DNA of 38,290 nt, from positions 1 through 38,290 of IMG/VR virus record IMGVR_UViG_3300009507_000046. One strand, given 5' to 3'. The stretch is from a virus. Shown here one piece after another: positions 14,193 through 29,766 of this stretch. Positions within the stretch are counted from its first letter, which is position 1, and each line of letters begins with the position of its first letter. The notes under the pieces are model-generated. The model saw only the letters and a list, made by a program, of their open reading frames with translations, was not told the DNA's origin and searched no databases. Both the position numbers and the translations under genes were made by a program.

Positions 14193-14375
14193 ATGGCCAT
14201 TAAAGTAAATACAACGGAAGTAATCACTAACGCACTAGAGCTAAAAGAGATTGCAACCATGGATACAGTTACTCAAACAACAATTACTGATTTTATTAAA
14301 GCTGTTGACCACAAGCTTATTATACGTGACTCAGCAGGTAATGAAACTTTTAGAATTTACGGACTGCCAGCGTAA
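14193..14375 (+). CDS. Small protein, probably virion-associated
   Basis: 60 residues (MAIKVNTTEVITNALELKEIATMD...). The ATG at 14193 has AAAGGAGATGAAC upstream; the ATG at 14187 is too close to GGAG. The stop overlaps the next start (TAATGG). Late promoter and coupling to a large Ser/Thr-rich protein suggest a structural role. Confidence 0.6.
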   Translation: MAIKVNTTEVITNALELKEIATMDTVTQTTITDFIKAVDHKLIIRDSAGNETFRIYGLPA

Positions 14376-15376
14376 TGGCCGGTTGGTTATTACAAGGTGA
14401 TTTAACTGGGGCTGGCGTTGGCCTTGATATGCCAAACCCAGCCTTTGACCCGTATGAAGGTCAGATATTACGAAGAATTGCTTATTTGTATTCTTTAAAT
14501 ACTACGGTTCGGTTAGACGTGGTTAGTTCTGGCGGAAACCTAGGTTCAATTACTGATACAAGAATGCAAGCTGGTACGAGTACATCTACCACTGCAGCAC
14601 AAGGTGGATTTGCTACTTCAGGCAATACGCCTAATATATCATCAATTACTGGTGGTACATACTCAAGAATAGACCAAGTAATAACATCTACACCAACATT
14701 ACCTACTGATACAGACTTGCATAGGTTTCCATTGCTTATGACTCCAACTGCTGGCGATCTTCAGTCTATGGACTTGGCTGATTGTTGGGAATTCTTTATT
14801 GCACCAGCAATGGCAATTATTGGTAACGGAACAGTAGATGCCAACTCGGGTGGTATGTATCATATATCTTCGTCAAATAGTGTTTCAGGCTCAACATTAG
14901 TATCATCAACACCAGTATTCATTGACACAAGAGCAAATGCTGCCGCGTATACTGCGGGCGGTATTGGTGAAACTCAGGACCAACCTACAACAATTAATAA
15001 CTATTATCTACATAAAGTTACCCCTGCAGCCAACACGCCTAGCTTTATGCCAGTATATTGGAGTTACGCAAATAGCGATATAAGAGAAATGTCTTTATCT
15101 ATGTTTGACGATATATTTGGACCAATGATACAATACGCTGCAGTAGCAGGAACCGGTGACCCATTGCATAACGCGGTTTTAAGATACAATATAAATGGTT
15201 CTGGTAACACGATGGGTTCTGTGATGGCTGATACAAGATTATCTGGTTCATCAGCAGCTGGATATACACAAAGATTTATAAGTACATCTGATTATCGAAC
15301 ACAGGAGTTTCCAAATGGTACTCCAACTACAGTCTCTTCTCACACATTGAAAAGTGTAATAACTAACACACCTTAA
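14375..15376 (+). CDS. Likely virion structural protein
   Basis: 333 residues, rich in Ser, Thr, Gly and Asn, low in Lys and Cys, without signal or membrane segments. Such composition is typical of phage tail or fibre-associated proteins. There are repeated Gly/Ser/Thr turns (DTRMQAGTSTSTTAAQGG; SSSNSVSGSTLVSSTP). Late promoter upstream and overlap with the small gene before it. No T4 gene counterpart recognised. Confidence 0.6.
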   Translation: MAGWLLQGDLTGAGVGLDMPNPAFDPYEGQILRRIAYLYSLNTTVRLDVVSSGGNLGSITDTRMQAGTSTSTTAAQGGFATSGNTPNISSITGGTYSRIDQVITSTPTLPTDTDLHRFPLLMTPTAGDLQSMDLADCWEFFIAPAMAIIGNGTVDANSGGMYHISSSNSVSGSTLVSSTPVFIDTRANAAAYTAGGIGETQDQPTTINNYYLHKVTPAANTPSFMPVYWSYANSDIREMSLSMFDDIFGPMIQYAAVAGTGDPLHNAVLRYNINGSGNTMGSVMADTRLSGSSAAGYTQRFISTSDYRTQEFPNGTPTTVSSHTLKSVITNTP

Positions 15377-15388
15377 GGAAAATATATT

Positions 15389-15925
15389 ATGGCAGAATTT
15401 AGTGGAGCTGTTCAGACAGCTTATTATATGAATGAAGAATACAGTTTAATTGAAGTTGTATATAAAAATTCTAACGATGAACTAATCAAATATATGATTG
15501 AAGCAAATGACAATGCAGATTACAATGCGTTGGTTGCCGAAGGTTATACTGAAGAAAAGCTTGTTGAAGGAACTTCCGAATACAAAAGAGTGCATGCAAG
15601 AGAATTTGGTGAATTAGTTAATGCCCAAGCTCAAAGTTTAGCAGAAGAAATGCTCGGAATGCGTATTATGATTGAACGTAAAAAGAACCTTGAAAAATCA
15701 AGCGCAAGTTTAGACCAAGATGCAAAGCAAGATGAAAACAAAGTAGACCACGTAATATACGACTTTATCCGAGACAATAACGAAAACAAAGAAGAATTAT
15801 TTAGATTTAAACTTTGGGCGTTAGAACAAGATATTGTTAAGGCCGCTGATAGGGATTTAAAATCTTCTATTCGTAAATCAAAAAGTATTACATCTGGTAT
15901 GGCGATTTATCATAGCCTATTATAA
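15389..15925 (+). CDS. Hypothetical protein of the late structural group
   Basis: 178 residues with a beta-type N terminus (FSGAVQTAYYMNEEYSLIEVVYKN) and a charged helical C-terminal two-thirds. AAGGAAAAT precedes the ATG and the gene follows the Ser/Thr-rich protein by 12 bases. Possibly a chaperone or adhesin partner; not recognised. Its end overlaps the next late promoter. Confidence 0.6.
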   Translation: MAEFSGAVQTAYYMNEEYSLIEVVYKNSNDELIKYMIEANDNADYNALVAEGYTEEKLVEGTSEYKRVHAREFGELVNAQAQSLAEEMLGMRIMIERKKNLEKSSASLDQDAKQDENKVDHVIYDFIRDNNENKEELFRFKLWALEQDIVKAADRDLKSSIRKSKSITSGMAIYHSLL

Positions 15926-15928
15926 ATA
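15921..15928 (+). promoter_or_regulatory. T4-type late promoter for the accessory cluster
   Basis: TATAAATA at the end of the previous gene, about 30 bases before the ATG at 15958. It is the likely entry point for the glycosyltransferase and oxygenase cluster. Confidence 0.7.
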
Positions 15929-15957
15929 CATTTATGTTTATAATGAAAGAGTGAATA

Positions 15958-16566
15958 ATGAATCCAGACAATATAATATTCGTAAAACACGGCGATAAGT
16001 ATACTGCCGAACATGTCAATAGATTAAGAGATCAGCTTAGAGAATATTACCCTAAGGCTCAATACCTGTGTTATACAGAAGATCCAACCGGGGTTGAGAT
16101 TGAAAAAATTCCATGTTTTAAAAAACCAACACTCAGATTTTGGTGGAATAAACTTGCAATGTTTAGTGCAGACTTTCCTGTAGAAGGTAAGTGTTTATTT
16201 TTTGATTTAGATATGGATATTAAAGAAGATCCATCGACATTTTTAAAATGGGACGGATTAACAATACTTAAAGATTATTGGAAAGACGATTTGTACATGG
16301 CCGCGCATGCCTATGATGTACATATAAACAGTTCAGTAATCACATGGACCGCGGGTGAACAGACTCACATATGGGATCATTTTTTATCAAATAAAGATTA
16401 TTTCATGCGTAAGTACGAAGGCATAGATAGATTTTTAGTCCATGAAGGATTAAAGTTTAATACGTTTGAGCACGGTTTAGTAAACAGTGTTGCTAATGAA
16501 TACAGAAATGCACCAATTGATATGTATAATGGAATGAAATATGAGTTACCTAGAAATCATTTATGA
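15958..16566 (+). CDS. Glycosyltransferase-like protein (GT-A, DxD)
   Basis: 202 residues. LFFDLDMDI (Asp83, Asp85, Asp87) is a DxD-type metal and sugar-nucleotide site after a beta strand, preceded by RFWWNKLAMF, as in phage GT-A glycosyltransferases. The middle carries SSVITWTAG, a typical acceptor-side segment. It would move a sugar from a nucleotide donor to an unknown acceptor (virion, DNA or host surface). It overlaps the next gene by 26 bases. First gene of the accessory cluster. Confidence 0.7.
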   Translation: MNPDNIIFVKHGDKYTAEHVNRLRDQLREYYPKAQYLCYTEDPTGVEIEKIPCFKKPTLRFWWNKLAMFSADFPVEGKCLFFDLDMDIKEDPSTFLKWDGLTILKDYWKDDLYMAAHAYDVHINSSVITWTAGEQTHIWDHFLSNKDYFMRKYEGIDRFLVHEGLKFNTFEHGLVNSVANEYRNAPIDMYNGMKYELPRNHL

Positions 16567-17188
16567 AAACGCGCTAAAAACAATTGGTGACATTTATATT
16601 GAATCCAAATATAATAAAGACGTAGACTTATATAGAAGTTTTGATGTTATTAATTCTCTTAATGAAACCCAATTAAAAGGTAAGCAATGGCTAGTTGATA
16701 CTTTAGTGCCATTCCTTAGTGAAGACTTAAAAGATATTATTATTCTTGGCAGTTGGTATGGATTAAATGGTATGCTGCTTAGACAGAAAATTGATAACGA
16801 TATTAAAATTTGGAACGTTGATTCAGATCCATTATGTAAAAAATATAGTAAAGAGCTTCAAAGTAACAATAATGATTATAAGCATAATTATTCTATTACT
16901 GACGATGCATTAGACTATTTCTTTACTAGATCTGAAAACTATCAACTTATTATTAATACAAGCTGTGAACACATGGAGCCAGAAGATATTCGTTTAATCG
17001 TTGGCGCAAAACCAAAAGATACGATGATTTGTTTTCAAAGTAATAATTACCATTCTGTTCAAAGCCATATTAATACACACGTTAGCATAGACTCATTCGT
17101 TGAGTCGCTAAACTTAGCCGTGGTTCTGTGGAAAGGTGAAATGCAAGTAAATGATGAATGTACTCGATATATGGTAATAGGTTTATGA
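16541..17188 (+). CDS. Class I SAM methyltransferase-like protein
   Basis: 215 residues. A motif I-like strand-loop (DIIILGSWYGLNGMLL, about 66-81) is followed by an acidic strand end (WNVDSDPLC), and YQLIINTSCEHM matches the post-motif region of Rossmann methyltransferases. The glycine-rich loop is atypical (GSWYG rather than GxGxG), so SAM binding is probable, not certain. Overlaps both neighbours; likely co-translated. Confidence 0.6.
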   Translation: MSYLEIIYENALKTIGDIYIESKYNKDVDLYRSFDVINSLNETQLKGKQWLVDTLVPFLSEDLKDIIILGSWYGLNGMLLRQKIDNDIKIWNVDSDPLCKKYSKELQSNNNDYKHNYSITDDALDYFFTRSENYQLIINTSCEHMEPEDIRLIVGAKPKDTMICFQSNNYHSVQSHINTHVSIDSFVESLNLAVVLWKGEMQVNDECTRYMVIGL

Positions 17189-18894
17189 AAAGAATTATAT
17201 TTACAACATATGACGATATAAAAAAAGAGAACGACCAGTGGGGAGCGAACTATTATGCCACTGAGTCTATCAATGAATATTTTGATAGGTTAATTTCAAA
17301 CAAAGAAGAGTATGCTAACAGTCTAATCAATGTTGAGTTTAAGTTTTATTATAACACCATGAAAGACTTTGATGTTGATACTGAATTAGAATTTACAAAG
17401 GCCAATATATACAAACATCATATCATGGCAGAGTTGGCTAAAGAATATGATGAAGTAATGTATATTGATATGGATGTTATATTTAATACAGAAAAGAATG
17501 TGTTTGACGAATTAGATTTAAACAAAGGTATTCATATTCAAGTACAGACTCACGAAGTTACAAGCAAAGACATTGAAGGTGTTATGTTTGAAAACATCGG
17601 AAACCGTTCGCCTACCCTTAAATACCATATAACAAAAGATTTATTAAATGGTAAAGATAACCACGTAATGAATACAGGCATTATGATTGCTAAGTCTGAG
17701 CATATTAATCAAATTAAATTTATTGAACGGTTGCCGGACATTATCAAAAGAATAGAAGATATGCGAATTGACGGCATAAAAGACGATGAATATAAATTTT
17801 TAAGAATGTATTATTATCCAAATAACGAAAGCGTATTTTCATATATTATGGAGAGTCAAAATATTTCATATGAAATTATGGACGAGAGATGGCATAAAAT
17901 AATTAAAGAAACGCCGCAGACGTTGGATTGGAATGAGATTGAAATTGCTCACATCATAAGTAAAAAGTTTAATATATTCTTTAAGGATAAAACTAAACTG
18001 ATATATTCTATTTACATTGAAATACCTGACGAACACTTAGATAATCCAAGAGGACCAAAGGACGATCCTGTCAATAAGAGTAAACGAACCAAAGAAAGAT
18101 TAGGCAAATATAAAGACAAATTATATAATAACCATATTGAATACGCAAAGAAACAAGACGCGACTTATATTCATTTTGGTAATGACAGCCAATGGCTTGA
18201 ATTTAGTAGTAGGTTTCCTGACCTATCAGTATATGATATAATTAATCTGTATAAAGTTTATCTTTTAGAAGAAATGACATGGAAATATGATTTAGTATTA
18301 TATGTAGATTTTGACGTTTGGTTTAATAATTTTGATGTTAATGTATTTGATTATATTAAAGGAGAACATTGCTTAGCGTGTGATACATCTTCTGCCATAG
18401 ATTCAGGCGTAAAGGTTTGGGATTCATTTTATTTTCAAAACTATAAAAGAGATTTTAGATCGCCAGAAGCAAAGTATTGGAATTGCCATGCTATGTTAAC
18501 TGAAGAGGATATGGAACCAGAAAATTACGTTTTTAATACTGGTATTATGATGGCAAGCAGAAAAGTTATGAAACAATTAGATTATTTTTCTGATATTGAT
18601 TATGTTTTAGGTATGATGAAAGAACTAAAGGAAGACTCCATATATCCACCACAAGTGCAAAAATCATTTGGGTACGACAACGAAACCATTATGTCATATA
18701 AGGTAAAAATGAATAATGTTGTTGTTGATAGGTTGAGTGAAACTTGGCACCTTAAACATATGAGCGAAAAGATTGAAGCATATACAGAGGGTACAAAAGA
18801 ACACGATATAAGTAAACATAAGCTTAAAGCAAGAATAAATTCAAATAACACGGTTATGGTTCACATGATTTCTAAAAACTTTGGATTGATATAA
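17185..18894 (+). CDS. Tandem-domain glycosyltransferase
   Basis: 569 residues from the ATG at 17185, which overlaps the previous stop. It contains two related halves. The first has VMYIDMDVIFN (Asp95, Asp97) and a later VMNTGIMIA; the second has VLYVDFDVWFN (Asp375, Asp377) and VFNTGIMMA. Both halves end with a Trp-His-Lys stretch (ERWHKI, ETWHLK) and HIISKKF or HMISKNF. This is a duplicated GT-A fold, each half with a DxD site. Two activities or one active and one binding half are possible; donor and acceptor unknown. Confidence 0.72.
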   Translation: MKRIIFTTYDDIKKENDQWGANYYATESINEYFDRLISNKEEYANSLINVEFKFYYNTMKDFDVDTELEFTKANIYKHHIMAELAKEYDEVMYIDMDVIFNTEKNVFDELDLNKGIHIQVQTHEVTSKDIEGVMFENIGNRSPTLKYHITKDLLNGKDNHVMNTGIMIAKSEHINQIKFIERLPDIIKRIEDMRIDGIKDDEYKFLRMYYYPNNESVFSYIMESQNISYEIMDERWHKIIKETPQTLDWNEIEIAHIISKKFNIFFKDKTKLIYSIYIEIPDEHLDNPRGPKDDPVNKSKRTKERLGKYKDKLYNNHIEYAKKQDATYIHFGNDSQWLEFSSRFPDLSVYDIINLYKVYLLEEMTWKYDLVLYVDFDVWFNNFDVNVFDYIKGEHCLACDTSSAIDSGVKVWDSFYFQNYKRDFRSPEAKYWNCHAMLTEEDMEPENYVFNTGIMMASRKVMKQLDYFSDIDYVLGMMKELKEDSIYPPQVQKSFGYDNETIMSYKVKMNNVVVDRLSETWHLKHMSEKIEAYTEGTKEHDISKHKLKARINSNNTVMVHMISKNFGLI

Positions 18895-18897
18895 ATA
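18890..18897 (+). promoter_or_regulatory. T4-type late promoter
   Basis: TATAAATA overlapping the end of the tandem glycosyltransferase gene, about 22 bases before the desaturase ATG at 18920. Confidence 0.68.
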
Positions 18898-18919
18898 TCA
18901 TATCAGTTAAGGAATATAA

Positions 18920-19555
18920 ATGATTGTAACATCAATAATAGTTGGATTAATATGGTCTCAAATCATATCGCATTTTGGGGCTTCTATATTATTGCATAGG
19001 TATTATTGTCATAAACAATTTGAGGTACCTAGGTGGTTTGAAGCCATAGGTCTTGGAATGTTGATGATAGCTTGTATCAGAACTCCAATTGGTTGGATCG
19101 CTTCTCATAGAATGCATCACAATCATTCTGATAGCGAAAAAGATCCACACTCTTGGAAACATGTAGGTTATTGGAAAGTTTTATTTACAACATGGGATAT
19201 AAAAAATATATCTCCAAAATATTCTCGTGACTTGTTTAATAACCCTATGTTAGTATTTTGTCACCATCATTGGTTAAAAATTCTTATCATTACAAACATA
19301 GTATCATTTATAATAAGTCCATATTTTTGGCTTGCTTTCTGTGTGATACCATTCATATTTGCAAAGGTAGGATTTGGTTTATTAAATACAGTTGGTCATA
19401 ATGAAGAAGGTGGTAGTGATGTTGCTTGGCTAAATCTCTTTATTGCAGGTGAAGGTTATCATAGACAACATCATCTTAATTGGAAACAAGTTAGATTACA
19501 TAAGTGGGACTCAGCCGGATGGATTGCTGAGCGATTATTTGTTAAAGGAAAGTAA
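18920..19555 (+). CDS. Fatty-acid (acyl) desaturase
   Basis: 211 residues of the membrane di-iron desaturase family. Histidine boxes: HRYYCH (26-31, HxxxxH), HRMHH (63-67, HxxHH), and HRQHH near residue 180, with a late GHNEEGG His. Hydrophobic segments flank the boxes. Delta-9 acyl-CoA or acyl-ACP desaturases have this pattern but are usually near 300 residues, so this is a compact form. It would introduce a double bond into membrane acyl chains, changing host membrane fluidity. AAGGAAT precedes the ATG. It ends one base before the next gene. Confidence 0.85.
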   Translation: MIVTSIIVGLIWSQIISHFGASILLHRYYCHKQFEVPRWFEAIGLGMLMIACIRTPIGWIASHRMHHNHSDSEKDPHSWKHVGYWKVLFTTWDIKNISPKYSRDLFNNPMLVFCHHHWLKILIITNIVSFIISPYFWLAFCVIPFIFAKVGFGLLNTVGHNEEGGSDVAWLNLFIAGEGYHRQHHLNWKQVRLHKWDSAGWIAERLFVKGK

Positions 19556-20194
19556 ATGAAAAAAAATCAATTACCATCCATAATGGAATTAAACGTTAAT
19601 ATTGACCTAGATAAATTACGCAAGAATTGTGATAAGTTACATGGTGAAGATAAGTTTATTGATGTACGAACAGCAAACCCAGGTTTATGTATGAACCACG
19701 AAGATTTAGTGAAAGATGTTTACGATAACTTTGAGCAAATCAATCTTACGACACCATCAGAAATACTGCCTCATACTACAAGCATTAAAGAACGATTACG
19801 ACGAAGAGAAGAACACTTATATAATGTACCAACTGATGATTACAGAGACAGTTATTTTGAACAAATAGTTACACAATGTAAAGCGCCAGCGTCTCGTATT
19901 CGTATTACTAAATTGGCGTCCGGTAAAATAATACCGTTTCATGTAGACTATGATGTATCATATGCAGTAAGATGTATTGTTCCAATATATGGAGATAACA
20001 ATACAGTTAACTTATTTAAACGTGATGGTAAACTAGAAGCATATAATTTAACCTGTGGTAAAGCATATTTTTTAAATATAGGTTATCCTCATGCAGTTAT
20101 TAATATGAGTGATAAACCACGCATTGCTTTAATGTTTAGCTTAGATGGTACAGACGATTTAGAAAACTTCGATAAATTTGGATTTTACAAATGA
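19556..20194 (+). CDS. 2OG/Fe(II) oxygenase, aspartyl-hydroxylase-like
   Basis: 212 residues. The C-terminal half forms the double-stranded beta-helix signature: His129-x-Asp131 (PFHVDYD), distal His179 (GYPHAVIN) and Arg189 (KPRIALMF) that would hold 2-oxoglutarate. This is the arrangement of Asp/Asn beta-hydroxylase and related phage oxygenases. The reaction would be hydroxylation of an unknown substrate. The stop overlaps the next start. One of six candidate oxygenases between 19.5 and 26.9 kb. Confidence 0.75.
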   Translation: MKKNQLPSIMELNVNIDLDKLRKNCDKLHGEDKFIDVRTANPGLCMNHEDLVKDVYDNFEQINLTTPSEILPHTTSIKERLRRREEHLYNVPTDDYRDSYFEQIVTQCKAPASRIRITKLASGKIIPFHVDYDVSYAVRCIVPIYGDNNTVNLFKRDGKLEAYNLTCGKAYFLNIGYPHAVINMSDKPRIALMFSLDGTDDLENFDKFGFYK

Positions 20195-20961
20195 CCTACG
20201 ATAAATCAGAAATGTGGCCTATTGCACGTGAAGTACAAGTAAAGGGTCATAAAATATTTTACGAACAAGAGTTTACAGAGCAATCATATATTGATTATAT
20301 GAACATGTTTGGTGAATTAGAACGACATGAACTGTTTATGAATTCCAAAAAAGTACCAGAGTTATTTTATGTTACTGATAAAAGAGATGAGTCAGGGCAA
20401 AAAATTGGTATGTTTGGTGGCGGTGAATTAGGTTGGCACTCTAATGGAAATAGCAGACATTTAATAGATAAAATATTAATCAGTCTTTATTGCGTAGAGG
20501 GTGATCCTAATACTACATTATCTATATGCAATACATCAGATCCTTTTTACGATTTATCTGAAGAGGATCAGGAATATTTTCTAAATGTAAGAATACGTCT
20601 TAAATTTAAAAACAATACAATGTACAAATTAGATGATGACGATCCAGAACTTGAGTTTATGAGTAAAAACAAAGGTTCTATTCGACCATTAGTTGGTAGA
20701 CATCCTCATACAGATAAGTATTACTTTTACTTTCCATATCATTTTATATGTAAAGCATGGCTTGGTAAAACTCGCATAGATCATAATGAACTTATTGAAA
20801 GACTAAAACCTATTATATTTAAAAGTAAATATCAAACACACCACATATTTCAAAAAGGTGATATGATTTTAATGGACCAATTGACTTCCTTACACAGACG
20901 AACACCTGTGATGGGAGACCGTATGTTATGGAGAGCTGCCGGTGACTACTCAAAAATCTGA
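20191..20961 (+). CDS. TauD/TfdA-like 2OG/Fe(II) dioxygenase
   Basis: 256 residues resembling taurine or clavaminate-type dioxygenases. It has GGGELGWHSNGN (His83, with Asn85 where Asp is usual), LVGRHPHTDKYYFYFP (residues 167-181, the conserved HP-x-T region) and SLHRRTPVMGDRMLWRAAGDY (His235 plus Arg). The HxN in place of HxD could weaken iron binding or alter chemistry, as in some halogenase-type relatives where the Asp is replaced. Overlaps both neighbours. Confidence 0.72.
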   Translation: MTYDKSEMWPIAREVQVKGHKIFYEQEFTEQSYIDYMNMFGELERHELFMNSKKVPELFYVTDKRDESGQKIGMFGGGELGWHSNGNSRHLIDKILISLYCVEGDPNTTLSICNTSDPFYDLSEEDQEYFLNVRIRLKFKNNTMYKLDDDDPELEFMSKNKGSIRPLVGRHPHTDKYYFYFPYHFICKAWLGKTRIDHNELIERLKPIIFKSKYQTHHIFQKGDMILMDQLTSLHRRTPVMGDRMLWRAAGDYSKI

Positions 20962-21760
20962 ACTAAGAAATTTACCATATGTAAATGTACCACGTTTTCA
21001 ATCTGTAGAAAAGTTATTACAGACTCAGAAAGTATCTGATACATATTTTAGTAGAGGTTCGGGCGAAGCAACCAGAGAATTAAATCATGTTGAGGCTACA
21101 CATAGGCACTGGGTAAGCTCTATGGTTGACCTATCAGATTTTACATATTGTTATTATGTACATGGCGTAACAGATGCTATACATCACTGGTCACTCACAG
21201 AAGACAGGGTATGGCAAATACTTGAAGGCGATTATGAATATGCAAATATGGTTGGAGGTAAAGGTACAAAGGTTTTAAATCAGCCATTATATCTTTCAAA
21301 TCCTGCAGCAGAAACAGGAAACATAATTTATTCCCATGCTAAGTCACCAGTTATCCTTGATTGTACATATGTTAGTTCAACCGCTATAAAAACTATTAAC
21401 GTACCTGAAAACACAGAACAAGTATTCTTTTCTTTTTCAAAAGGTTTTGGTTTAATTGGTCAAAGGTTAGGTTTGGTATATACTAAAGAGCCACACCCTA
21501 CATTACATAGATTAAAAGAATATGAGAATTGGAATTATGGCGGTGTAAAAACCATGCAATTAATAATGAATAATTTTTCTGTAGATAGTATGTTTAACAA
21601 ATATAGAAAAATGCAATTAGACGTTTGTAAAGAATACGATTTAACTCCATCTGATGTTTTCTATTTAGCAACTACTAAAGACAAATATTATATAAGGCGA
21701 AGACGTGGTGGTGATGTTGCACGTATATGTTTAACTCCTTTATTTAAAGACGTAATATGA
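20942..21760 (+). CDS. PLP-dependent aminotransferase-like enzyme (fold type I)
   Basis: 272 residues from a GTG start with GGAG 8 bases upstream. FFSFSKGFGLIGQRLGLVYT matches the SxSKxFGLxGxRxG Schiff-base lysine segment of class I/II aminotransferases, preceded by a strand resembling the PLP-cofactor Asp region (LDCTYVSS). The C-terminal RRGGDVARICLTP holds an Arg that could bind a carboxylate. At 272 residues it is much shorter than the usual 380-420, lacking most of the N-terminal arm. Amino-sugar or amino-acid metabolism is possible; substrate unknown. Confidence 0.68.
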   Translation: MTTQKSELRNLPYVNVPRFQSVEKLLQTQKVSDTYFSRGSGEATRELNHVEATHRHWVSSMVDLSDFTYCYYVHGVTDAIHHWSLTEDRVWQILEGDYEYANMVGGKGTKVLNQPLYLSNPAAETGNIIYSHAKSPVILDCTYVSSTAIKTINVPENTEQVFFSFSKGFGLIGQRLGLVYTKEPHPTLHRLKEYENWNYGGVKTMQLIMNNFSVDSMFNKYRKMQLDVCKEYDLTPSDVFYLATTKDKYYIRRRRGGDVARICLTPLFKDVI

Positions 21761-22980
21761 ACGTTATTAGAAAATTTAAATTAGATTATGATTGGAAAGA
21801 GTTTGTACGAGAACTTGACGAAAGGTATCCGCTCGAAAATTATAAATTCCACAAAGAGTTTCCTACTGCAAATGGTACATATCACCACGACATATTAGAA
21901 GGTGACATGCCTCCTCATTTAAAAGAAGCTATTGAACGTAGTCTTGGATTTAAAATAAAGGATTATTATTTCTTATGGGATTGGAGATGTTTGACGACAA
22001 CTCTTTCTCAGCATCGTGACACGTATAAAGCAGCTAAACATACAGGTATAAGTGATTTTGACAGTCATGTATTTGAAACAACCGCAGACGAAATAGGCAA
22101 ACCTCCGCTTACTGTCGTGGTTGCTTTGGAAAATGATTTTAGAATTGATATTCAGGATAGCGAAAGCAAAGAATGGTTAAGTGTTATATATGGTCCTGGC
22201 GATATAATATTCTTTAATAATGATAAAGACTTACATGGCGGTCAGGTATTAAACGATCCAAATAATATATCACGAAGGTCATTAAACTGTTATGTCGACC
22301 ATAAAGAAGTTGAAGGATTAAATTGGTTAAATGAAAAAGTTGTACATAACGTACCTTGGCCAGAAATTAAAACAAAAATAGAGAATGGTCAAAAGGTTCC
22401 TTTAAAAGAAGATTATGAATTTAGCGATATGTCATACCTCGACACACCGGAGGCATATGAGTTATTTGAAACTCAAGCAAATATTATTATAGAAAAACAA
22501 TGTAAAGGTATTGTTGACGTTGGCTGCAGACATGGACCAGTATTAAATATATTACATTCAAAAGGTTATACTGATTTTAAATATATGGGATTTGATACAA
22601 GTAAAGAACCTATTGACATAGCAACAGAAAAATGGAAAGACTACGATAATATAGAATTTAGGCATGAGAGTTGGAATGATTTAGAAACATTCTTAGTTGA
22701 TTTTAATGTTGACCAAGTTATATGGAGCGGTGTATTACTATACAGACCTGACGATCATTTTGAATTTTTTGATAAAATTACGAATGAAATATACAAAAGC
22801 CCTAATGCAATTATTCAGGAACCTATGTCTTGGCAGCGTCATTGGAAAGCAGAATTAATTTTAAATAGAATATCAGATGATATGGAACAATATAAAAACA
22901 CGTACAAAGAATTTAAAGAACATAAACTTGATTTAGAAATATTTGCTGGTCGCAGATTAGTAGTGGATGTCACGTTATGA
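21757..22980 (+). CDS. Fused 2OG/Fe(II) oxygenase and SAM methyltransferase
   Basis: 407 residues with two domains. N-terminal (1-185): SQHRDTYKA (His86, Asp88), YGPGDIIFFNN, DLHGGQVL (His160) and SRRSLNCYVDH (Arg174), a 2OG oxygenase beta-helix. C-terminal (about 225-407): KGIVDVGCRHGPVLNIL (motif I, residues 250-266), YMGFDTSKEPIDIA (Asp280) and QVIWSGVLLY, a class I methyltransferase. The fusion suggests sequential hydroxylation and methylation of one substrate, which is inference. Overlaps both neighbours. Confidence 0.75.
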   Translation: MNVIRKFKLDYDWKEFVRELDERYPLENYKFHKEFPTANGTYHHDILEGDMPPHLKEAIERSLGFKIKDYYFLWDWRCLTTTLSQHRDTYKAAKHTGISDFDSHVFETTADEIGKPPLTVVVALENDFRIDIQDSESKEWLSVIYGPGDIIFFNNDKDLHGGQVLNDPNNISRRSLNCYVDHKEVEGLNWLNEKVVHNVPWPEIKTKIENGQKVPLKEDYEFSDMSYLDTPEAYELFETQANIIIEKQCKGIVDVGCRHGPVLNILHSKGYTDFKYMGFDTSKEPIDIATEKWKDYDNIEFRHESWNDLETFLVDFNVDQVIWSGVLLYRPDDHFEFFDKITNEIYKSPNAIIQEPMSWQRHWKAELILNRISDDMEQYKNTYKEFKEHKLDLEIFAGRRLVVDVTL

Positions 22981-23561
22981 TATTAGCACTTAGTACATCA
23001 CAAGCTCCAAACAGCCTTAATTACAGAGGGTTAAAACTATTGAGTTGTAAGTTTGATAGAATAGATTGTTTGGCTGATTATGATATACCTGTAGTAAATG
23101 TAAATGGTATGGATGCAGATATACCTAAAGATGTAACCGCTGTATTTGATATGATGAATAAGTTTGATAAGTTTGTATTTGCAATACCAGAGTTTACTGG
23201 AATGATGAGTTCAAGCACAAAGAATTTATTAGACTGGGCTGTTGTAATATCAAATATGAATTTAGATCATGGTAAAGGATACCCTTGGACTGATAAACAT
23301 GTTATACTTCTCACCTTTACTCCGAGTGGAAAAGAAGGTGGTGGCAGACATATGGAACAGACTAAAGATATATTTAAAAAACTTGGTGCAAATGTTGTAT
23401 ATACAGATGTATCTACATATGGTTGGAAGCATATTGTTCCAGATAACCAAGAGCACTTTAAAGAGTTTTCTGATAAAATAAACAACTATCTACTATATAA
23501 ATCAGATAATAAAGATTATTTTAAAAATGAATATAATAATTGGAATGATAAATGGAAATAA
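22977..23561 (+). CDS. NADPH-dependent FMN reductase-like flavoprotein
   Basis: 194 residues of the flavodoxin-like FMN_red family. It has an N-terminal strand with LSTSQAPNSLN (phosphate loop), FVFAIPEFTGMMSSSTKNLLDW matching the P-E-Y-N-G...L-K-N-x-L-D-W family signature, and VILLTFTPSGKEGGGRHM. It would supply reduced flavin or move electrons to oxygenases. Residues 165-194 are a Lys/Asn-rich tail. Overlaps the next gene by 10 bases. Confidence 0.78.
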   Translation: MILALSTSQAPNSLNYRGLKLLSCKFDRIDCLADYDIPVVNVNGMDADIPKDVTAVFDMMNKFDKFVFAIPEFTGMMSSSTKNLLDWAVVISNMNLDHGKGYPWTDKHVILLTFTPSGKEGGGRHMEQTKDIFKKLGANVVYTDVSTYGWKHIVPDNQEHFKEFSDKINNYLLYKSDNKDYFKNEYNNWNDKWK

Positions 23562-24340
23562 ATAACGAGTGCATTATTGTAAGCGGGGATAGTTTTACAG
23601 ATTCCAATTACAAAAGCCAGACCGATCCGGATCATATTTCAAATTATCAAAAATGGCCAGAATATATTAGTAAAGGTACTATAATTAATGTTGGCAAAAG
23701 CGGAGCAGACAATGTTTCAATGATTAATGCTGCGATCAAACAAATTTATAATACGCCGAAAAAAATAGACAGAATCATAATAGGACTGACAAATTGGTAT
23801 AGATTTGCGTTACCACACAATGTTGTAAATCCAGACTGGGCATATAATTTTAGTACACCTGAGATGGAAGCCGAGTTTAGACAAAATCCGTATATGAAAT
23901 GGTTAATTGATAGTAAGTACTATGATACTAACTATAAATTTAATGTCGGTTATTGTAAAGAATATGATTGGTCAGTAATACATAATAATGTAATAGAGTA
24001 TTCTGTAGAACAAACATTATTTTCTATATTTAAAATCCATCAACTATGCAATCTAAATAATATCAAATTACATATTTTTCAAATGCTTTTTCCTATAGTA
24101 GATAGAAAAGAAACAACACATAAATTTATTTCTACGCTTTTGAACAATAAATGGTTTACGAAAATTGACAACAAAGAAATTGATTTGATAGGATGGCCAT
24201 TTTTTAATGATATTGGAGGTACATGTGCCGAAGAATTGTTATCAGATACAAAATATAAAATAAGTAATTTAGATCATCATCCTAACGATATAGGACACAA
24301 ATTAATAGGTAACTGGATTAATGAAAATTCTAATATTTAA
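23552..24340 (+). CDS. SGNH/GDSL-type hydrolase
   Basis: 262 residues. Block I GDSFTD (Ser14), a block II-like NVGKSGADN (Gly), IIIGLTNW near block III, and C-terminal DHHPNDIGH (Asp241, His243), the usual block V. Typical of SGNH esterases such as glycan O-acetyl or acyl-transfer enzymes. No signal peptide. In this cluster, editing acyl groups on a glycan or lipid is plausible but inferred. Confidence 0.75.
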   Translation: MEINNECIIVSGDSFTDSNYKSQTDPDHISNYQKWPEYISKGTIINVGKSGADNVSMINAAIKQIYNTPKKIDRIIIGLTNWYRFALPHNVVNPDWAYNFSTPEMEAEFRQNPYMKWLIDSKYYDTNYKFNVGYCKEYDWSVIHNNVIEYSVEQTLFSIFKIHQLCNLNNIKLHIFQMLFPIVDRKETTHKFISTLLNNKWFTKIDNKEIDLIGWPFFNDIGGTCAEELLSDTKYKISNLDHHPNDIGHKLIGNWINENSNI

Positions 24341-24410
24341 AATAAAATTATTTCTGAGTAAATTTAAAAAGAAGAAGAAAAATAAATCGTCAGAATTTAT
24401 ATATGATTAA
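24321..24410 (+). CDS. Possible 29-residue basic peptide
   Basis: A short frame overlapping the end of the hydrolase gene: a hydrophobic start (MKILIFKIKLFLSKF) then a lysine run and KSSEFIYD. The ribosome site is weak. It fills the gap before the peroxiredoxin gene, but may be chance. Confidence 0.3.
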   Translation: MKILIFKIKLFLSKFKKKKKNKSSEFIYD

Positions 24411-24420
24411 AGGAGCTATA

Positions 24421-24825
24421 ATGCAAATAAACAACAATGGATTGTACATACTAAAAGATAACGATTATGTACCGTACGAAATACCTCAAGGTAAAGTAAT
24501 ATTATGTGGTGTTCCAGGAGCGTTTACGCCGGGTTGCACTAACAGACACTTACCTGGGTTTGCAAAGAATATGGATAACATTGGTCCAAAGGTCGTGTTT
24601 ATTGGAGTTAATGATCCTAGTGTTATGCATGAATGGAATGTTCTGCACGGTCACCCAGATATTGATGCCGTTGCCGATCCTCTTGCTGTATTTAGTAAAA
24701 GTATTAATAAAGATGTAGACTTTGGTGATTATATGGGCATCAGATGTAAACGATATGCTATGCTTATAGAGGATGGTGTGTTTGTAAAAGAATATGATAA
24801 TCCATTTATTGAGGGTGTGTTATGA
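24421..24825 (+). CDS. Peroxiredoxin (Prx5/AhpE-like)
   Basis: 134 residues. GVPGAFTPGCTNRHLPGF carries the peroxidatic Cys39 and Thr36 in the PxxxTxxC motif of Prx5-type peroxiredoxins, with FIGVNDPSVMHEWN and later an Arg (GIRCKRYAML). It reduces peroxides at the expense of a thiol donor. The ATG at 24421 has AAAGGAGC upstream. Only about 134 residues against roughly 160 usual, so compact. Overlaps the next gene. Protection from peroxide made by the Fe(II) or flavin enzymes nearby is a reasonable guess. Confidence 0.85.
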   Translation: MQINNNGLYILKDNDYVPYEIPQGKVILCGVPGAFTPGCTNRHLPGFAKNMDNIGPKVVFIGVNDPSVMHEWNVLHGHPDIDAVADPLAVFSKSINKDVDFGDYMGIRCKRYAMLIEDGVFVKEYDNPFIEGVL

Positions 24826-25487
24826 TACCAGGGATTGCAGAGTATGTAGACGTTGATCCTCAGCACGAATTATTACTTGACCTATATGAAAAGGTAAAAG
24901 GAGCAAGGGCTGGTGAAGACTTTAATGTATTTGGTAAGACACCTTTTGAAAGTTATTCACTAGAGTTTAATATGACAGGTGAAGATACTGGCTATGAAGC
25001 CATATACGATCCTATTTTATCTCAACACAGAAAGGTACATCCTCATTATCAATTTAGATCAACTGGTTTTAACACGGCTGATAGCACAGAGAAAGATGTA
25101 TTTCCTCACACTGACATAGATCAGAATAGAGAACATAGCCAAGGATATAATATCATATATCCCGTATTAGGCGCAAGTCGTTTAGATTATTTTGAAACAT
25201 TGGAAGATGAAATATGTTTGCCTGAAAAGAATGCTCAAGGATATTATTATTACCACGAATTTAAAGCGCAGAGTCAAATGGGTCAAGGTACACCAGAGTT
25301 TGAAAAGTTTTTAGCTGATCGTAAGATTGGTGAAATCATTATTGATAAGCCTTGTCTTATTGATACAGAGGTAATGCATAGAGTAATTATTACAGAAGCA
25401 CCTCGATGCGCGTTTGTTACAAGATGGAATAATATACCACCAATTGATTTTAAATCATTTAAAGAAAGAGTTGAGTCTATATTATGA
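24822..25487 (+). CDS. 2OG/Fe(II) oxygenase-like protein
   Basis: 221 residues. VFPHTDID (His96, Asp98) lies after a probable strand, then GYNIIYPVLGASRLDYFET, and LIDTEVMHRVIITEAPRCAFVTRW holds the distal His186 and candidate Arg195 or Arg201. The spacing (about 90 residues between the two His) fits the double-stranded beta-helix. No closer subfamily recognised. Overlaps both neighbours (ATGA and a shared stop). Confidence 0.68.
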   Translation: MIPGIAEYVDVDPQHELLLDLYEKVKGARAGEDFNVFGKTPFESYSLEFNMTGEDTGYEAIYDPILSQHRKVHPHYQFRSTGFNTADSTEKDVFPHTDIDQNREHSQGYNIIYPVLGASRLDYFETLEDEICLPEKNAQGYYYYHEFKAQSQMGQGTPEFEKFLADRKIGEIIIDKPCLIDTEVMHRVIITEAPRCAFVTRWNNIPPIDFKSFKERVESIL

Positions 25488-25966
25488 CTTGGCAAACATC
25501 ATATACTATATCTGATAATCTAAAAAAGTTAATCACTGATATGTGTGATGTTAAATTAACTGGAAAACCCGACGATAAGCAGATATGGCAAAGAACATCT
25601 AGTATAACTTTAGATTCAAATACGTGGACGTTTTATGCAGCAGATGAGTTAATTAATATTAAAGAGCAAATAAAAAGTATTACAGGTTTAAATACAATAT
25701 ACGATCATGGCTATACTTGCATATGGCGGTACGATGAGTCATTTCCAAAATGCCCAATTCATATTGACGATAAGGCTCAGCATAGAGGATCCCTATGTAT
25801 ATCTTTATCTGGTTATCATAATATATTTTTACATGATATAGAAACAAAAGAAAAACTAGAAAAGATTATCGTAAAAGACAATAGTATTATGTTTATAAAA
25901 AATTCAGAATACTATCATAGTGTTGAAGGCAATGGCGATTTATTAATATTAGGTGTTGAAGCGTGA
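25484..25966 (+). CDS. Small 2OG/Fe(II) oxygenase-like protein
   Basis: 160 residues. CPIHIDDKAQHRGSLCISLSG carries His93-x-Asp95, and MFIKNSEYYHSVEGNGDLLILGV carries the distal His145. The usual 2OG-binding Arg about ten residues after that His is absent, so it may bind another acid or be inactive. Otherwise the strand pattern fits a minimal beta-helix core. The TGA overlaps the next GTG start. Confidence 0.6.
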   Translation: MTWQTSYTISDNLKKLITDMCDVKLTGKPDDKQIWQRTSSITLDSNTWTFYAADELINIKEQIKSITGLNTIYDHGYTCIWRYDESFPKCPIHIDDKAQHRGSLCISLSGYHNIFLHDIETKEKLEKIIVKDNSIMFIKNSEYYHSVEGNGDLLILGVEA

Positions 25967-26505
25967 GAATAGTTCCATATATTTTAAAAGGTGAAGTACA
26001 ACCTGGCGATTGGTCATACGAATTTGAACAATTACATCTCGACAGTTTAAACGATAGGCTATCTAATAATTACACGGGTGATAAATTAAACCTTGATAAG
26101 ATGTACAACTTTACATTCACATATGATGGCGATAGCCTAGTACAGTGTTCTGGTACTCAGATATGCACCAGTAATGCCGTTAGAGTATTTAGTAGGTATT
26201 ATATGTTTAATGAATATAGGACTGATGGCACTAATCCGCTTGAAAAGACTGACAACTTTGCTGAATTAAAATATACACTTGATACCTTATCTGACTTTCC
26301 TCTTGTTATATGGACAAGAGATAAGAGTAAAGGTTTCTTTAAAAGATTAAAACGTGGCAGACCTGATATATTTAAAGACTGGGAAGTATATCCAGAAATG
26401 ATAGAACTAATGTATAAGGATAACTATCAAAGCATTTTCTATACTGGAGATATTACGCATCTACACAGCCTACAATATGAAGCCTACTCTCAAAAGAAGC
26501 ATTGA
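25963..26505 (+). CDS. Unknown protein, possibly acetyltransferase-like
   Basis: 180 residues from a GTG that overlaps the previous stop. The pattern (FTFTYDGDSLVQCSGTQICTSNAVRVFSRYYM then a helix and a second beta region) vaguely resembles GNAT folds, but I see no acetyl-CoA loop (R/Q-x-x-G-x-G/A). Basic segment KGFFKRLKRGRPDIFKDW. Last plus-strand gene of the cluster; its last 53 bases overlap the convergent minus-strand oxygenase gene. Confidence 0.45.
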   Translation: MRIVPYILKGEVQPGDWSYEFEQLHLDSLNDRLSNNYTGDKLNLDKMYNFTFTYDGDSLVQCSGTQICTSNAVRVFSRYYMFNEYRTDGTNPLEKTDNFAELKYTLDTLSDFPLVIWTRDKSKGFFKRLKRGRPDIFKDWEVYPEMIELMYKDNYQSIFYTGDITHLHSLQYEAYSQKKH

Positions 26506-26890
26506 CAAAAGTATGTTTCTTAGTAGTGTCTATAAGGTAATGCGATCCGTCTGCAGGGTACCTACTTATTTCATCGTCTATAATAAAAAAGTTATTTTCA
26601 TTAGTAAGTAATGGTATATGCATTCGTTTAGTTGGATCCCAATGATATGAATAACAAGTTTTTGGTTTCATATTCATAAGTCGAGATCTATACATTCCCA
26701 ATTCAGATAATACAGAATTAGTATATGGTATATCGTAAGCAAACACATTAAAGTCTTCCTCTTTATAATCTAATTTTGCTAACTGCCCTTCACCACTAGA
26801 ACCATCAGCTGTCACCTGTAATGAAAGCTGTGTATCATATTTTGGTAAACTTTCTAACTCTAATAATATATGTTCTATGTTTATGGACAT
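26453..26890 (-). CDS. Aspartyl beta-hydroxylase-like 2OG/Fe(II) oxygenase
   Basis: 145 residues. CYSYHWDPTKRMHIPL (His83, Asp85), FFIIDDEI, then DTTKKHTFVNASFESRLHIVG with distal His126 and Arg136, the compact Asp/Asn hydroxylase type. Sixth candidate oxygenase of the region, on the opposite strand. It starts 10 bases inside the SDR gene, so the two minus-strand genes form a pair. Confidence 0.72.
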   Translation of the reverse strand: MSINIEHILLELESLPKYDTQLSLQVTADGSSGEGQLAKLDYKEEDFNVFAYDIPYTNSVLSELGMYRSRLMNMKPKTCYSYHWDPTKRMHIPLLTNENNFFIIDDEISRYPADGSHYLIDTTKKHTFVNASFESRLHIVGCVDA

Positions 26891-27312
26891 ACCGTTATTT
26901 CCTTTACTCTATGTGGCTGCTCTAACACCCACTCAATTACTTCACAACAATATTCTATACTCATCTTTTTATCTTTTACCTCTGCAACACGAGGTGAATC
27001 AAAATAACCAAACCGTACGATAGTTGTTTCTGTGCCTTGATAAAATAACTGGTCATTCGCTTTATCAAGCGCTGCCTTTTCAACTTGATACATATGTGGG
27101 TAATATTTTGATTGATCCGGTGAATTAGAACCTATATTAATAATACGTTTGCCAAGTTTGGCTGCTTCGTATAATAACTTAACTTGTTCAAAGCCATCGT
27201 GTTTACAATTAATGAATACATCGCATTCCTCTAAAGATGATACGATACCATATTTTTGTTTCAGTGTTTTACCTAGACCTCGCCTAGTACCAGTAATATA
27301 AAATTTTATCAT
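26881..27312 (-). CDS. Short SDR-family dehydrogenase-like protein
   Basis: 143 residues. FYITGTRRGLGKTL is the TGxxxGxG nucleotide loop, then DVFINCKHDG, RIINIGS and YPHMYQVEKAALD with YxxxK. This gives the key pattern of short-chain dehydrogenases in a chain roughly 100 residues shorter than usual. The ATG at 27312 is preferred: the upstream TTG at 27336 has no ribosome site. No ribosome site precedes 27312 either, and a minus-strand TATAAATA ends five bases before it, so the message may be leaderless. Confidence 0.7.
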   Translation of the reverse strand: MIKFYITGTRRGLGKTLKQKYGIVSSLEECDVFINCKHDGFEQVKLLYEAAKLGKRIINIGSNSPDQSKYYPHMYQVEKAALDKANDQLFYQGTETTIVRFGYFDSPRVAEVKDKKMSIEYCCEVIEWVLEQPHRVKEITVCP

Positions 27313-27317
27313 AAACT

Positions 27318-27325
27318 TATTTATA
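27318..27325 (-). promoter_or_regulatory. T4-type late promoter, minus strand
   Basis: TATAAATA on the minus strand, five bases before the ATG of the SDR-like gene. It would place the transcript start at about the ATG. Confidence 0.5.
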
Positions 27326-27329
27326 TCTA

Positions 27330-27357
27330 TTGACAATATTTTAAAATAGGATATAAT
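27330..27357 (+). promoter_or_regulatory. Consensus sigma70 promoter upstream of the tmRNA
   Basis: TTGACA, 16-base spacer, TATAAT: both hexamers are perfect. No gene follows before the tmRNA, so it probably adds to tmRNA transcription. Lacks the shared GAATCRGT block. Confidence 0.65.
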
Positions 27358-27438
27358 AGATTTATCTACTATAAAATAATAATAGTTATAATGACTGTTA
27401 CAAAATAGTTACAGTATTTTAATTAGTATTTAAATTTA

Positions 27439-27468
27439 TTGACATTTTCTCTAAATGTGATATATATA
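27439..27468 (+). promoter_or_regulatory. sigma70 promoter of the tmRNA
   Basis: TTGACA with TATATA after 16 or 18 bases (overlapping choices at 27461 and 27463). The start would fall near 27473, immediately before the acceptor piece. Confidence 0.68.
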
Positions 27469-27473
27469 ATTAG

Positions 27474-27815
27474 TGAACGTTGAAATGACGTGAATACGGA
27501 TCGGACGTGGGGGCAGTACCCACCTGCTCCACCATAAACATATCTAATGGCCCTGATCAGTCAGCTCGATGACTTGGTACTAAGTTGTGCACAAACGGCG
27601 TACAAAGGTGTATTCCTGGTCTACAAACCTAAGTTAGGTATGTTTTTGATGGGGCAGAACAAGGATCGACGGACGGAATAGCTTAATGGAGTTCATCGGG
27701 TGATCGCGTATAGATCGAATTTAATAATTGCAAATAACAATTATAAACCATCTGGATTGGCCTTAGCGGCATAATCGCAGGGGGTTGGTCACTTACCTAG
27801 CAACAGAAAAGTGAT
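27474..27815 (+). ncRNA. ssrA: Circularly permuted two-piece tmRNA
   Basis: Rescues stalled ribosomes and adds a degradation tag. The acceptor piece comes first: its 3' end has T-stem GTGGG/CCCAC (27507-27523), acceptor strand CTGCTCC, and ACCA ending at 27534. After a removed spacer (27535-27650), the coding piece starts GGGGCAG (27651), which pairs with CTGCTCC. ATACGGATC (27494-27502) pairs with GATC-CGTAT (27702-27711, one bulged G) as the P2 helix. The tag frame from GCA at 27730 reads ANNNYKPSGLALAA then TAA (27772-27774). A downstream H-type pseudoknot (GTTG/CAAC with TCACTT/AAGTGA) follows. Outer ends are approximate. Confidence 0.9.
27535..27650 (+). other. Internal spacer removed from the permuted tmRNA precursor
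   Basis: 116 bases between the CCA end and the GGGG start. Its two ends are complementary (AAACATA near 27536 and TATGTTT near 27640), so it extends the acceptor helix in the precursor and would be cut out to make the two mature pieces. Confidence 0.75.
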
Positions 27816-27844
27816 ATTCATTAAACAATAAAAAGGGTAATAAA

Positions 27845-28855: not shown

Positions 28856-28858
28856 CTA

Positions 28859-28887
28859 TTGACATTCTTAGCTATTTGTTATAAAAT
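28859..28887 (+). promoter_or_regulatory. sigma70 promoter
   Basis: TTGACA, 17-base spacer, TAAAAT, starting at the heme oxygenase stop. It drives the glycosyltransferase, basic protein and bilin reductase genes. Confidence 0.75.
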
Positions 28888-28946
28888 ACTAATATAAATC
28901 AAAAAGTAATTCGTTACGCGAAAGCATTTTTGGAATAGGAGAAAAA

Positions 28947-29756: not shown

Positions 29757-29766
29757 GGAGAGTAAA

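Follow-up and report, generated by a model that had tools for sequence, protein, structure and literature searches.

A recurrent oxygenase-rich gene cluster from a marine T4-like phage, possibly encoding a modular tailoring pathway

Closest described systems

The closest counterpart of the cluster studied here lies in Pelagibacter phage Mosig EXVC030M (MT647606.1), in which Mosig_00072-00081, annotated gene by gene, encode the same protein families: two PF05118 proteins, a desaturase, an aminotransferase, an FMN reductase, a peroxiredoxin, a relative of our protein 24822 (genes are named by their lowest coordinate), a TauD protein, a methylase and an acetyltransferase. The body text of the Mosig genome announcement (PMC7892664) does not mention the block, and a title and abstract search of the openly licensed literature found no paper on it. 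The Mosig cassette sits between baseplate and tail-fibre genes. It differs from the block in our window, the whole stretch of DNA analysed (positions 1 to 38,290, 38,290 nucleotides, of IMG/VR record IMGVR_UViG_3300009507_000046, from a marine, T4-like phage), in having a different gene order, a different GNAT family and no fused 2OG domain, and the window block adjoins replication genes, outside the structural module.

In pelagimyophages the host recognition cluster lies between VrlC and gp14 as a hypervariable island with tail fibres, GT8 enzymes and radical SAM cassettes (PMC7029224). It resembles the present system as a variable island beside tail genes with glycosyltransferases, but the relevant passages of that paper do not describe an oxygenase-PLP-methyltransferase core. 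The position of the Mosig cassette is compatible with the VrlC-gp14 island, and no VrlC or gp14 was identified in the window fragment. Mycobacteriophages, with their glycosylated virions, would offer an example of phage glycosyltransferases that modify virion proteins, although we know of no oxygenase, PLP-enzyme or desaturase tailoring there.

Related clusters also occur on two Bdellovibrionota genomes. A Bacteriovoracaceae MAG contig (JAFMBV010000002.1; our loci L073 and L075) encodes a desaturase, a PLP enzyme, AspH1, TauD, an FMN reductase, a 24822-like oxygenase, a methyltransferase and a 25963-like GNAT-fold protein; in contrast to the phage block, this cluster is apparently chromosomal, has additional radical SAM, PP-loop and acyl-carrier-like genes and shows no tail genes. 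It adjoins aroA/aroB/aroC-like genes, and no phage genes were seen by eye. In genome G074 the cluster is partly present.

Organization of the operon

The open reading frames were found at the coordinates given in the preliminary description, which had reported six candidate HxD...H oxygenases in one compact cluster with almost every start overlapping the previous stop. The operon occupies 18920-26505 on the plus strand. Between 20191 and 25963, inclusive, each start overlaps the stop before it by 4-20 bases, except for a 62-base gap before 24403, and the 19556 start abuts the previous reading frame. The gene at 26453 does not belong to this compact set: together with 26881 it forms a looser AspH2-SDR pair on the minus strand, convergent to the operon. 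The block showed no RiPP precursor, and its only gap is the one of 62 bases.

Oxygenases of the cluster

The oxygenase genes are as follows.

19556..20194, plus strand: AspH1, Asp/Arg-hydroxylase-like 2OG oxygenase, core (PF05118, 3.7e-5)
20191..20961, plus strand: TauD-family protein with H83-x-N85, core (PF02668, 6.7e-16, above cut-off)
21757..22356, plus strand: 2OG oxygenase domain fused in front of a methyltransferase (AlphaFold and Foldseek)
24822..25487, plus strand: putative divergent 2OG-type oxygenase, accessory (conserved residues; weak profile)
25484..25966, plus strand: 2OG-type oxygenase, kin of the 21757 N-terminal domain, accessory (profile)
26453..26890, minus strand: AspH2, 2OG oxygenase of the separate convergent pair (PF05118, 6.4e-8)
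26881..27336, minus strand: SDR-like partner of AspH2 (motif label; no Pfam match)

The bare pattern H.D.{30,150}H.{8,16}R is weak evidence by itself, because 7-38% of shuffled versions of the six proteins matched it, and it was rejected as the sole basis for assignment; the desaturase and the two glycosyltransferase-like proteins match it as well. The 2OG assignments given here are backed by Pfam, a structure model, profile comparison and conservation, and on these grounds five of the six proposed oxygenases (19556, the 21757 N-terminal domain, 24822, 25484 and 26453) were retained with an HxD site, the exception being 20191.

AspH1 scored 24.1 bits and AspH2 33 bits against the curated PF05118 cut-off of 22.6. 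The AspH1 residues H129, D131, H179 and R189 are present in 39/39 aligned sequences, and its PDB match is a 7v4f-type beta-hydroxylase; the AspH1-like beta-hydroxylase entry 7v4m is titled as coming from a nucleoside antibiotic pathway. In AspH2, H83, D85, H126 and R136 are found in 29/29, and the SDR-like partner accompanies it in 12 of 18 AspH2 loci.

In 20191 the only HxD, H173-T-D, lies away from the metal site, which alignment places at H83-S-N85, with H235 as the distal histidine; H83-S-N85 is invariant in 67/67 rows and aligns onto the HxD of ScoE. The protein resembles the TauD/TfdA enzymes ScoE and RdpA in Pfam and PDB profile, but has H-x-N where they have the H-x-D/E...H facial triad. 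We therefore describe it as TauD-like by sequence with an apparently atypical metal site, and do not claim canonical TauD chemistry. A limited literature search did not find the term HxN for TauD enzymes.

The model of the 21757 N-terminal domain (AlphaFold pLDDT 79) matched prolyl hydroxylases and AlkB with Foldseek probability 1.00 and ALKBH7 with a VIA Z of up to 13.3, predicting a P4H/AlkB-type double-stranded beta-helix, so that the 2OG fold proposed for this domain was borne out by modelling. Protein 25484 is homologous to this domain (hhalign 98%) and has relatives in 3 of the 28 viral loci collected with the TauD protein (see below). For 24822, which has relatives in 12/28, no Pfam match and no PDB sequence match were obtained; its profile is weakly similar to that of 19556 (hhalign 33%, E 5e-4), and H96, D98, H186 and R195 are invariant in 23/23. 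A relationship of 24822 to family u3 gained no support from profile comparison.

Other enzymes of the operon

The remaining operon genes encode a further set of enzymes.

18920..19555, plus strand: membrane desaturase-like enzyme, core (PF00487, 3.1e-11)
20942..21760, plus strand: short PLP enzyme of aminotransferase type, core (conserved residues; weak profile matches)
22432..22980, plus strand: class I methyltransferase domain, core (Methyltransf_31, 2.4e-9)
22977..23561, plus strand: NADPH-dependent FMN reductase, accessory (PF03358, 1.2e-15)
23552..24340, plus strand: SGNH-hydrolase-like protein, sporadic (motif label; no Pfam match)
24403..24825, plus strand: peroxiredoxin, accessory (Redoxin, 5.8e-13)
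25963..26505, plus strand: GNAT-fold protein, frequent (AlphaFold and Foldseek)

Among the labels previously given to these neighbours, Pfam agreed with flavin reductase, peroxiredoxin, desaturase and methyltransferase domain, while SGNH (23552) and SDR (26881) are motif readings. The desaturase gave SCD1-like PDB matches and its histidine boxes are invariant in 41/41. The label of PLP enzyme drew from Pfam only a match of 0.043, below the cut-off, and from PDB profiles weak matches to histidinol-phosphate aminotransferases (best 7e-4 over about 75 residues), but G75, T77, D140, K167 and R175 are invariant in 38/38 and R261 is present in 37/38. We take K167 to be the Schiff-base lysine, D140 and R175 to be cofactor residues of fold type I aminotransferases, all three being present in every sequence, and R261 to be the carboxylate-binding arginine, as in aminotransferases. 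Because no full-length profile match was obtained, we call the protein only aminotransferase-like.

The FMN reductase occurs in 15/28 TauD loci, and C45 of the peroxiredoxin is kept in 26/26. The SGNH-like protein occurs in 1/28; a scan gave no close relatives, with 0/7 candidate stretches related. Protein 25963, which was missing from the preliminary list, was modelled with pLDDT 90.8 and matched GNATs with Foldseek probability 1.00; the acyl-CoA loop R/Q-x-x-G-x-G/A was not apparent in the consensus as read by eye. Its family is found in 8/28 TauD loci and family u2, annotated as N-acetyltransferase in Mosig, in 13/28; treating the two as one family was unsupported (hhalign 1%).

Recurrence of the cluster

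With the TauD protein alone as query, 28 viral loci were collected, and these carry AspH1 (27/28), the methyltransferase (26/28), the PLP enzyme (22/28) and the desaturase (21/28), the counts including near-duplicate contigs and so not representing independent events. In the loci that extend 4.5 kb or more to each side, all five core genes (desaturase, AspH1, TauD, PLP enzyme and methyltransferase) are present without exception (7/7). The block thus recurs in other phages, its genes not being singly scattered, and this, together with the 2OG fold of the one modelled oxygenase, supports the earlier proposal of a single biosynthetic or modification pathway. The cluster is genuine rather than an unrelated pile of genes, with 26453 and the SGNH gene as accessory, non-core members.

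Gene order is shuffled across the loci while content is retained. A PLP variant with an extra insert occurs with a second TauD subfamily in 12/12 contigs, compared with 0/20 for the variant lacking the insert; this correlation perhaps reflects few evolutionary events. The methyltransferase is fused to different partners, namely a P4H-like domain, the second TauD and (by eye) the FMN reductase.

Among 50,697 phage records, the PLP enzyme and AspH1 matched Pelagibacter phage Mosig only, and neither matched in plasmids. In genome contigs the PLP profile found nothing and AspH1 two loci; one of these, L072 (label Ca. Paceibacter), resembles a phage contig placed in the wrong bin. A quick PLP tree, with long branches that meet and used only for this split, placed cassette-type sequences, including those of genomes G001 and G074, apart from radical-SAM-associated bacterial ones.

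Upstream genes and the late-type motif

Upstream of the operon lie a further set of genes and two matches to a promoter-like motif.

14375..15376, plus strand: S/T-rich protein (23% S+T), probable tail protein from genomic context, possible acceptor
15921..15928, plus strand: TATAAATA, putative T4 late-type promoter motif (motif match), 37 nt before 15958
15958..16566, plus strand: candidate glycosyltransferase (DxD-like motif by eye; no Pfam match)
16541..17188, plus strand: candidate methyltransferase (label by eye; Mosig homologue annotated methyltransferase; no Pfam match)
17158..18894, plus strand: candidate glycosyltransferase, apparently two repeats (label by eye)
18890..18897, plus strand: TATAAATA, putative late-type motif (motif match), 30 nt before the desaturase

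The S/T-rich protein has no family match of its own. In Mosig its homologue, Mosig_00097, closes the run of baseplate and tail-fibre genes, and the homologue in locus L131 follows a 1516-residue virion structural/tail fibre protein. Genes 15958, 16541 and 17158 form a GT-MT-GT unit that recurs in relatives (17158 has 25 viral relatives), with the S/T-rich gene upstream in 18/25 loci and in 17/17 of those with at least 7.4 kb of upstream sequence. The 16541 homologue in Bdellovibrionota adjoins short PLP genes. The 15958 label occurs in only 3/28 TauD loci and GT units are found alongside other oxygenase sets too, so the unit and the cassette need not share one target.

The motif TATAAATA lies at -27 to -39 of the desaturase start in 10/41 entries, compared with 0/40 TauD, 0/26 PLP and 0/29 methyltransferase starts; Mosig and most other lineages lack it at this position. 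In the window, it is likewise found upstream of the heme oxygenase and gp32-like genes, and its 10 sites there, against about 9-10 estimated from base composition, represent no over-representation. Scans for sigma-70 promoters and terminators gave matches at shuffle level only.

A possible pathway and its alternatives

Our preferred reading, which we hold tentatively and at slightly less than even strength, is that 18920-26505 encodes one modular tailoring pathway, probably for an amino-acid-derived product and possibly one that decorates the virion. The PLP enzyme and the Fe/2OG enzymes (AspH1, the TauD-family protein with its HxN site and an exchangeable partner oxygenase) would modify a common scaffold, which the SAM methyltransferase, the membrane desaturase-like enzyme and the GNAT-fold protein would finish, with the flavin reductase and peroxiredoxin perhaps supplying or protecting reduced cofactors. 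The upstream GT-MT-GT genes, with the S/T-rich tail-linked protein, suggest that this group might then be moved, late in infection, onto the tail or virion of the phage itself. In favour of the pathway are co-inheritance, shuffled order with kept content, partner swapping and fusions. That the enzymes act on a single scaffold we consider probable. For an amino acid or amino-acid-derived unit as substrate, hinted at by the conservation of R261, the chances seem about even. The virion as destination is more doubtful; it is suggested by the S/T-rich tail-linked gene upstream, the tail-gene neighbours, the site of the Mosig cassette and the late-type motif. Carnitine-like and saxitoxin-like pathways, judged on gene types only, were dropped because their defining enzymes are absent.

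The strongest alternative, less likely than the preferred reading, is that the product is a small molecule of natural-product type that stays free of the virion and targets the host cell or competitors, or serves as a metal or redox ligand. The two Bdellovibrionota genomes, with their radical-SAM, PP-loop and carrier-protein-like genes, are in its favour, and bacterial clusters without tail genes speak for a free or cell-bound product, as does for a free one the resemblance of AspH1 to the beta-hydroxylase of entry 7v4m. The phage block, however, has no visible transporter, NRPS/PKS or self-resistance gene, and the late-type motif and tail-linked neighbours also argue against this explanation.

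A further possibility is that the genes change O-chains or lipids in the envelope of the host, which could serve to keep competing phages out. Glycosyltransferases in the host recognition cluster of pelagimyophages have been interpreted in this way in print, and the Mosig cassette appears to sit in a hypervariable island of the kind described in PMC7029224. A membrane desaturase would suit a lipid target, but exclusion of other phages would be expected earlier than a late-type motif suggests. A PLP enzyme with many oxygenases is also unlike O-chain synthesis as generally known, and we regard this explanation as rather improbable.

Hypermodification of phage DNA, on whose bases phages use PLP enzymes, GNATs and 2OG enzymes, would accord with the TET-associated glycosyltransferase-like gene at 28947, but seems very improbable given that no TAGT homologue is labelled among the relatives, that the usual nucleotide kinases and hydroxymethylases were not seen in the block, that bacterial homologues exist and that the motif is of late type. 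Equally improbable is a gathering of unrelated auxiliary genes in a hypervariable region, or a mere 2-oxoglutarate drain, since, common as 2OG genes are in marine T4-like phages, where passages of two papers tie them to 2OG/nitrogen signalling (PMC3037559) and seasonality (PMC11561400), five unrelated families are jointly retained here across shuffled orders, fusions and correlated swaps.

Within the preferred reading of one tailoring pathway, a bolder version, which we think improbable, is that marine T4-like phages and Bdellovibrionota share a combinatorial cluster whose product, a heavily oxidised group derived from an amino acid and belonging to a new class, is attached to a tail protein. 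In this version the constant TauD-like member would naturally hold its iron at a His-x-Asn site and might therefore carry out chemistry other than hydroxylation (e.g. halogenase-like). The invariant H-x-N site in a TauD clade is a feature that enzymologists can address directly. Few unexplained genes are commoner in marine phages than those for 2OG oxygenases; here several of their families are linked to a fixed core and to a phage isolated on a cultured host, which makes the question of the product testable. If the virion is the target, phages would build elaborate non-standard groups to dress their own tails.

Metal sites of the oxygenase candidates

Every ORF of the cluster was present as in the preliminary description, which had proposed six 2OG oxygenases from a bare HxD...H text pattern. 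That pattern proved unspecific when tested, but five of the six candidates hold H-x-D and the distal His in all aligned relatives: 19556 (AspH1; 39/39), 24822 (23/23), 25484 (7/7), 26453 (AspH2; 29/29) and the N-terminal domain of 21757 (7/7), the only one of the six with a modelled fold; the sixth, 20191, has W-H-S-N instead. The assignment of 25484 as a putative 2OG-type oxygenase follows from profile comparison, and 24822, also a putative 2OG-type oxygenase, is the least supported of the candidates. Several more families resemble 2OG oxygenases; when seven of these were scanned, u7 (2OG-FeII_Oxy_3) and u23 (PF05118) were the two supported by Pfam.

The 20191 protein is a TauD relative, and the Asn of its metal motif is invariant in 67/67 aligned rows, of which six are bacterial or from MAGs and one is from a Prochlorococcus phage, as well as in 40/40 distinct viral sequences. 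In a PDB profile alignment its W-H-S-N position falls on the H-x-D of ScoE. Loss of the Asp need not mean loss of function, because human AspH is a 2OG enzyme that can work without the carboxylate ligand, according to the abstract and passages of PMC13168262.

Recurrence and layout of the block

The set recurs as a block in other viruses. Among 28 viral loci found with the TauD protein alone, AspH1 was present in 27, the methyltransferase (22432) in 26, the PLP enzyme (20942) in 22 and the desaturase (18920) in 21, and all five core genes occurred in 7/7 loci flanked on each side by 4.5 kb or more; gene order varies between lineages and gene content is maintained. Accessory genes vary more: FMN reductase and peroxiredoxin (15/28 each), the GNAT-like family u2 (13/28), 24822 relatives (12/28), the GNAT-fold protein 25963 (8/28), AspH2 (5/28), 25484 (3/28) and SGNH (1/28). 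AspH2 and its SDR-like partner are a pair separate from the core; in AspH2's own 18 loci the SDR-like gene occurred in 12, at least one core family in 11, and AspH1, TauD, PLP and methyltransferase together in four, the seven lacking any core gene including several incomplete loci.

Among 50,697 phage records, PLP and AspH1 each matched the Pelagibacter phage Mosig only. TauD also matched phage P-HM2, weakly, with no other core gene annotated beside it; this relative (L138, 1090-2148; Prochlorococcus phage) lies near gp59/gp32 and has the same H-x-N site. A contig labelled Ca. Paceibacter MAG (L072), carrying desaturase-PLP-TauD-MT-GNAT-AspH1-AspH2, looks like a mis-binned phage contig.

Plus-strand genes are closely spaced from 15389 to 26505 and, from 18920 on, abut or overlap with the single exception of a 62-base gap. 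Two motifs lie within this stretch:

30 nt upstream of the desaturase, window: T4 late-type TATAAATA
37 nt upstream of the first glycosyltransferase-like gene, window: second T4 late-type TATAAATA

The total in the whole window was, by our own estimate, not above chance, and therefore only position and conservation were used as evidence. In relatives the motif lies at -27 to -39 upstream of the desaturase in 10 of the 41 desaturase entries listed (0.012 expected per start), being missing there in Mosig and many others, and precedes 0/40 TauD, 0/26 PLP and 0/29 methyltransferase starts. This placement suits a single transcript, at least in the window lineage.

Swaps and fusions

In 32 contigs having both PLP and methyltransferase, a second TauD subfamily accompanied the PLP enzyme with an extra insert in 12/12 and that without it in 0/20, a correlation that may reflect few events; in three of the 12 it is fused to the methyltransferase. 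Its slot is taken by a P4H-like domain fused to the methyltransferase in the window and by the u7 oxygenase in other contigs, and one methyltransferase (L040) has, as read by eye, an FMN-reductase-like N-terminus. The correlated swaps, like the fusions, point to cassette enzymes that may work one after another on a common scaffold. The earlier reading as a single pathway gains support from the co-occurring core, shuffled order with kept content, correlated swaps and fusions, and one modular pathway is well supported.

Source phage and bacterial relatives

The window, a virus record of 38,290 bases, is T4-like phage DNA, encoding topoisomerase, gp32-type, UvsX-type and DnaB-type proteins. Its replicative helicase is below 60% identity to that of every matched phage record, and none of the records compared as DNA with 13400-38290 was near. 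Two further features of the window are:

27425-27865 (+): permuted tmRNA gene (alpha_tmRNA 94.1 bits, tmRNA_permuted 93.7 bits; ARAGORN tag ANNNYKPSGLALAA)
28313-30620 (+): heme oxygenase (PF01126), TET-associated-glycosyltransferase-like gene (PF20691), ferredoxin oxidoreductase (PHROG 7278)

The permuted tmRNA gene, of alphaproteobacterial type, hints at an alphaproteobacterial host; the second feature is a predicted bilin-type cassette, broken up by the glycosyltransferase-like gene.

Related clusters occur in two bacterial genomes: G074 and G001, a Bacteriovoracaceae MAG whose 118-kb contig has the block close to aroA/aroB-like genes. AspH1 matches 5/129 genomes of their class, strongly in these two only; the short PLP family is broader (21/368 genomes of the phylum with E no higher than 1e-3, and 16 with E below 1e-8). 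Plasmids searched for PLP and AspH1 had neither. A u81-family gene lies near the short PLP gene in 9/15 fetched places, and Pfam confirmed Radical_SAM in the one u81-type and one u41-type protein scanned. Radical SAM proteins beside short PLP genes are:

L103, 7745-8899
L105, 5967-7103
L107, 1350
phage family u41

Marine phage contigs share this protein at ~60-72% identity with several genomes of Bdellovibrionota, which is an unusually high likeness for carriers so distant from each other. By eye, L106 8167-9243 (-), beside a short PLP gene, is an amidinotransferase-like protein without a Pfam hit, and in the G074 cluster one ORF (16006-17010 on the reverse strand of the joined L083/L084 piece, numbered along its reverse complement) has a u2 GNAT-like relative followed by a SET-like domain.

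Possible destination of the product

A member of the S/T-rich 14375 family stands upstream of the unit GT15958-MT16541-GT17158 in 18/25 loci, several being near-duplicates, and in 17/17 with at least 7.4 kb upstream. Family searches left 14375 itself without annotation. The Mosig homologue comes last among the baseplate/tail-fibre genes, and the one in L131 comes after a 1516-aa virion structural/tail-fibre protein; beside the window's own copy no further tail gene was seen, but the GT unit and the cassette do lie there. Because of these links 14375 is a plausible acceptor, and we claim no more. The alternative that the island's glycosyltransferases modify the host O-chain stands; passages of PMC7029224 read them in this way.

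In the pathway that we propose, the scaffold would be amino-acid-derived and the product would decorate the virion. Tailoring genes that phages carry within a host-recognition island are a known kind, to which this cluster would add an enzymologically odd member of the pathway, the H-x-N TauD relative 20191.
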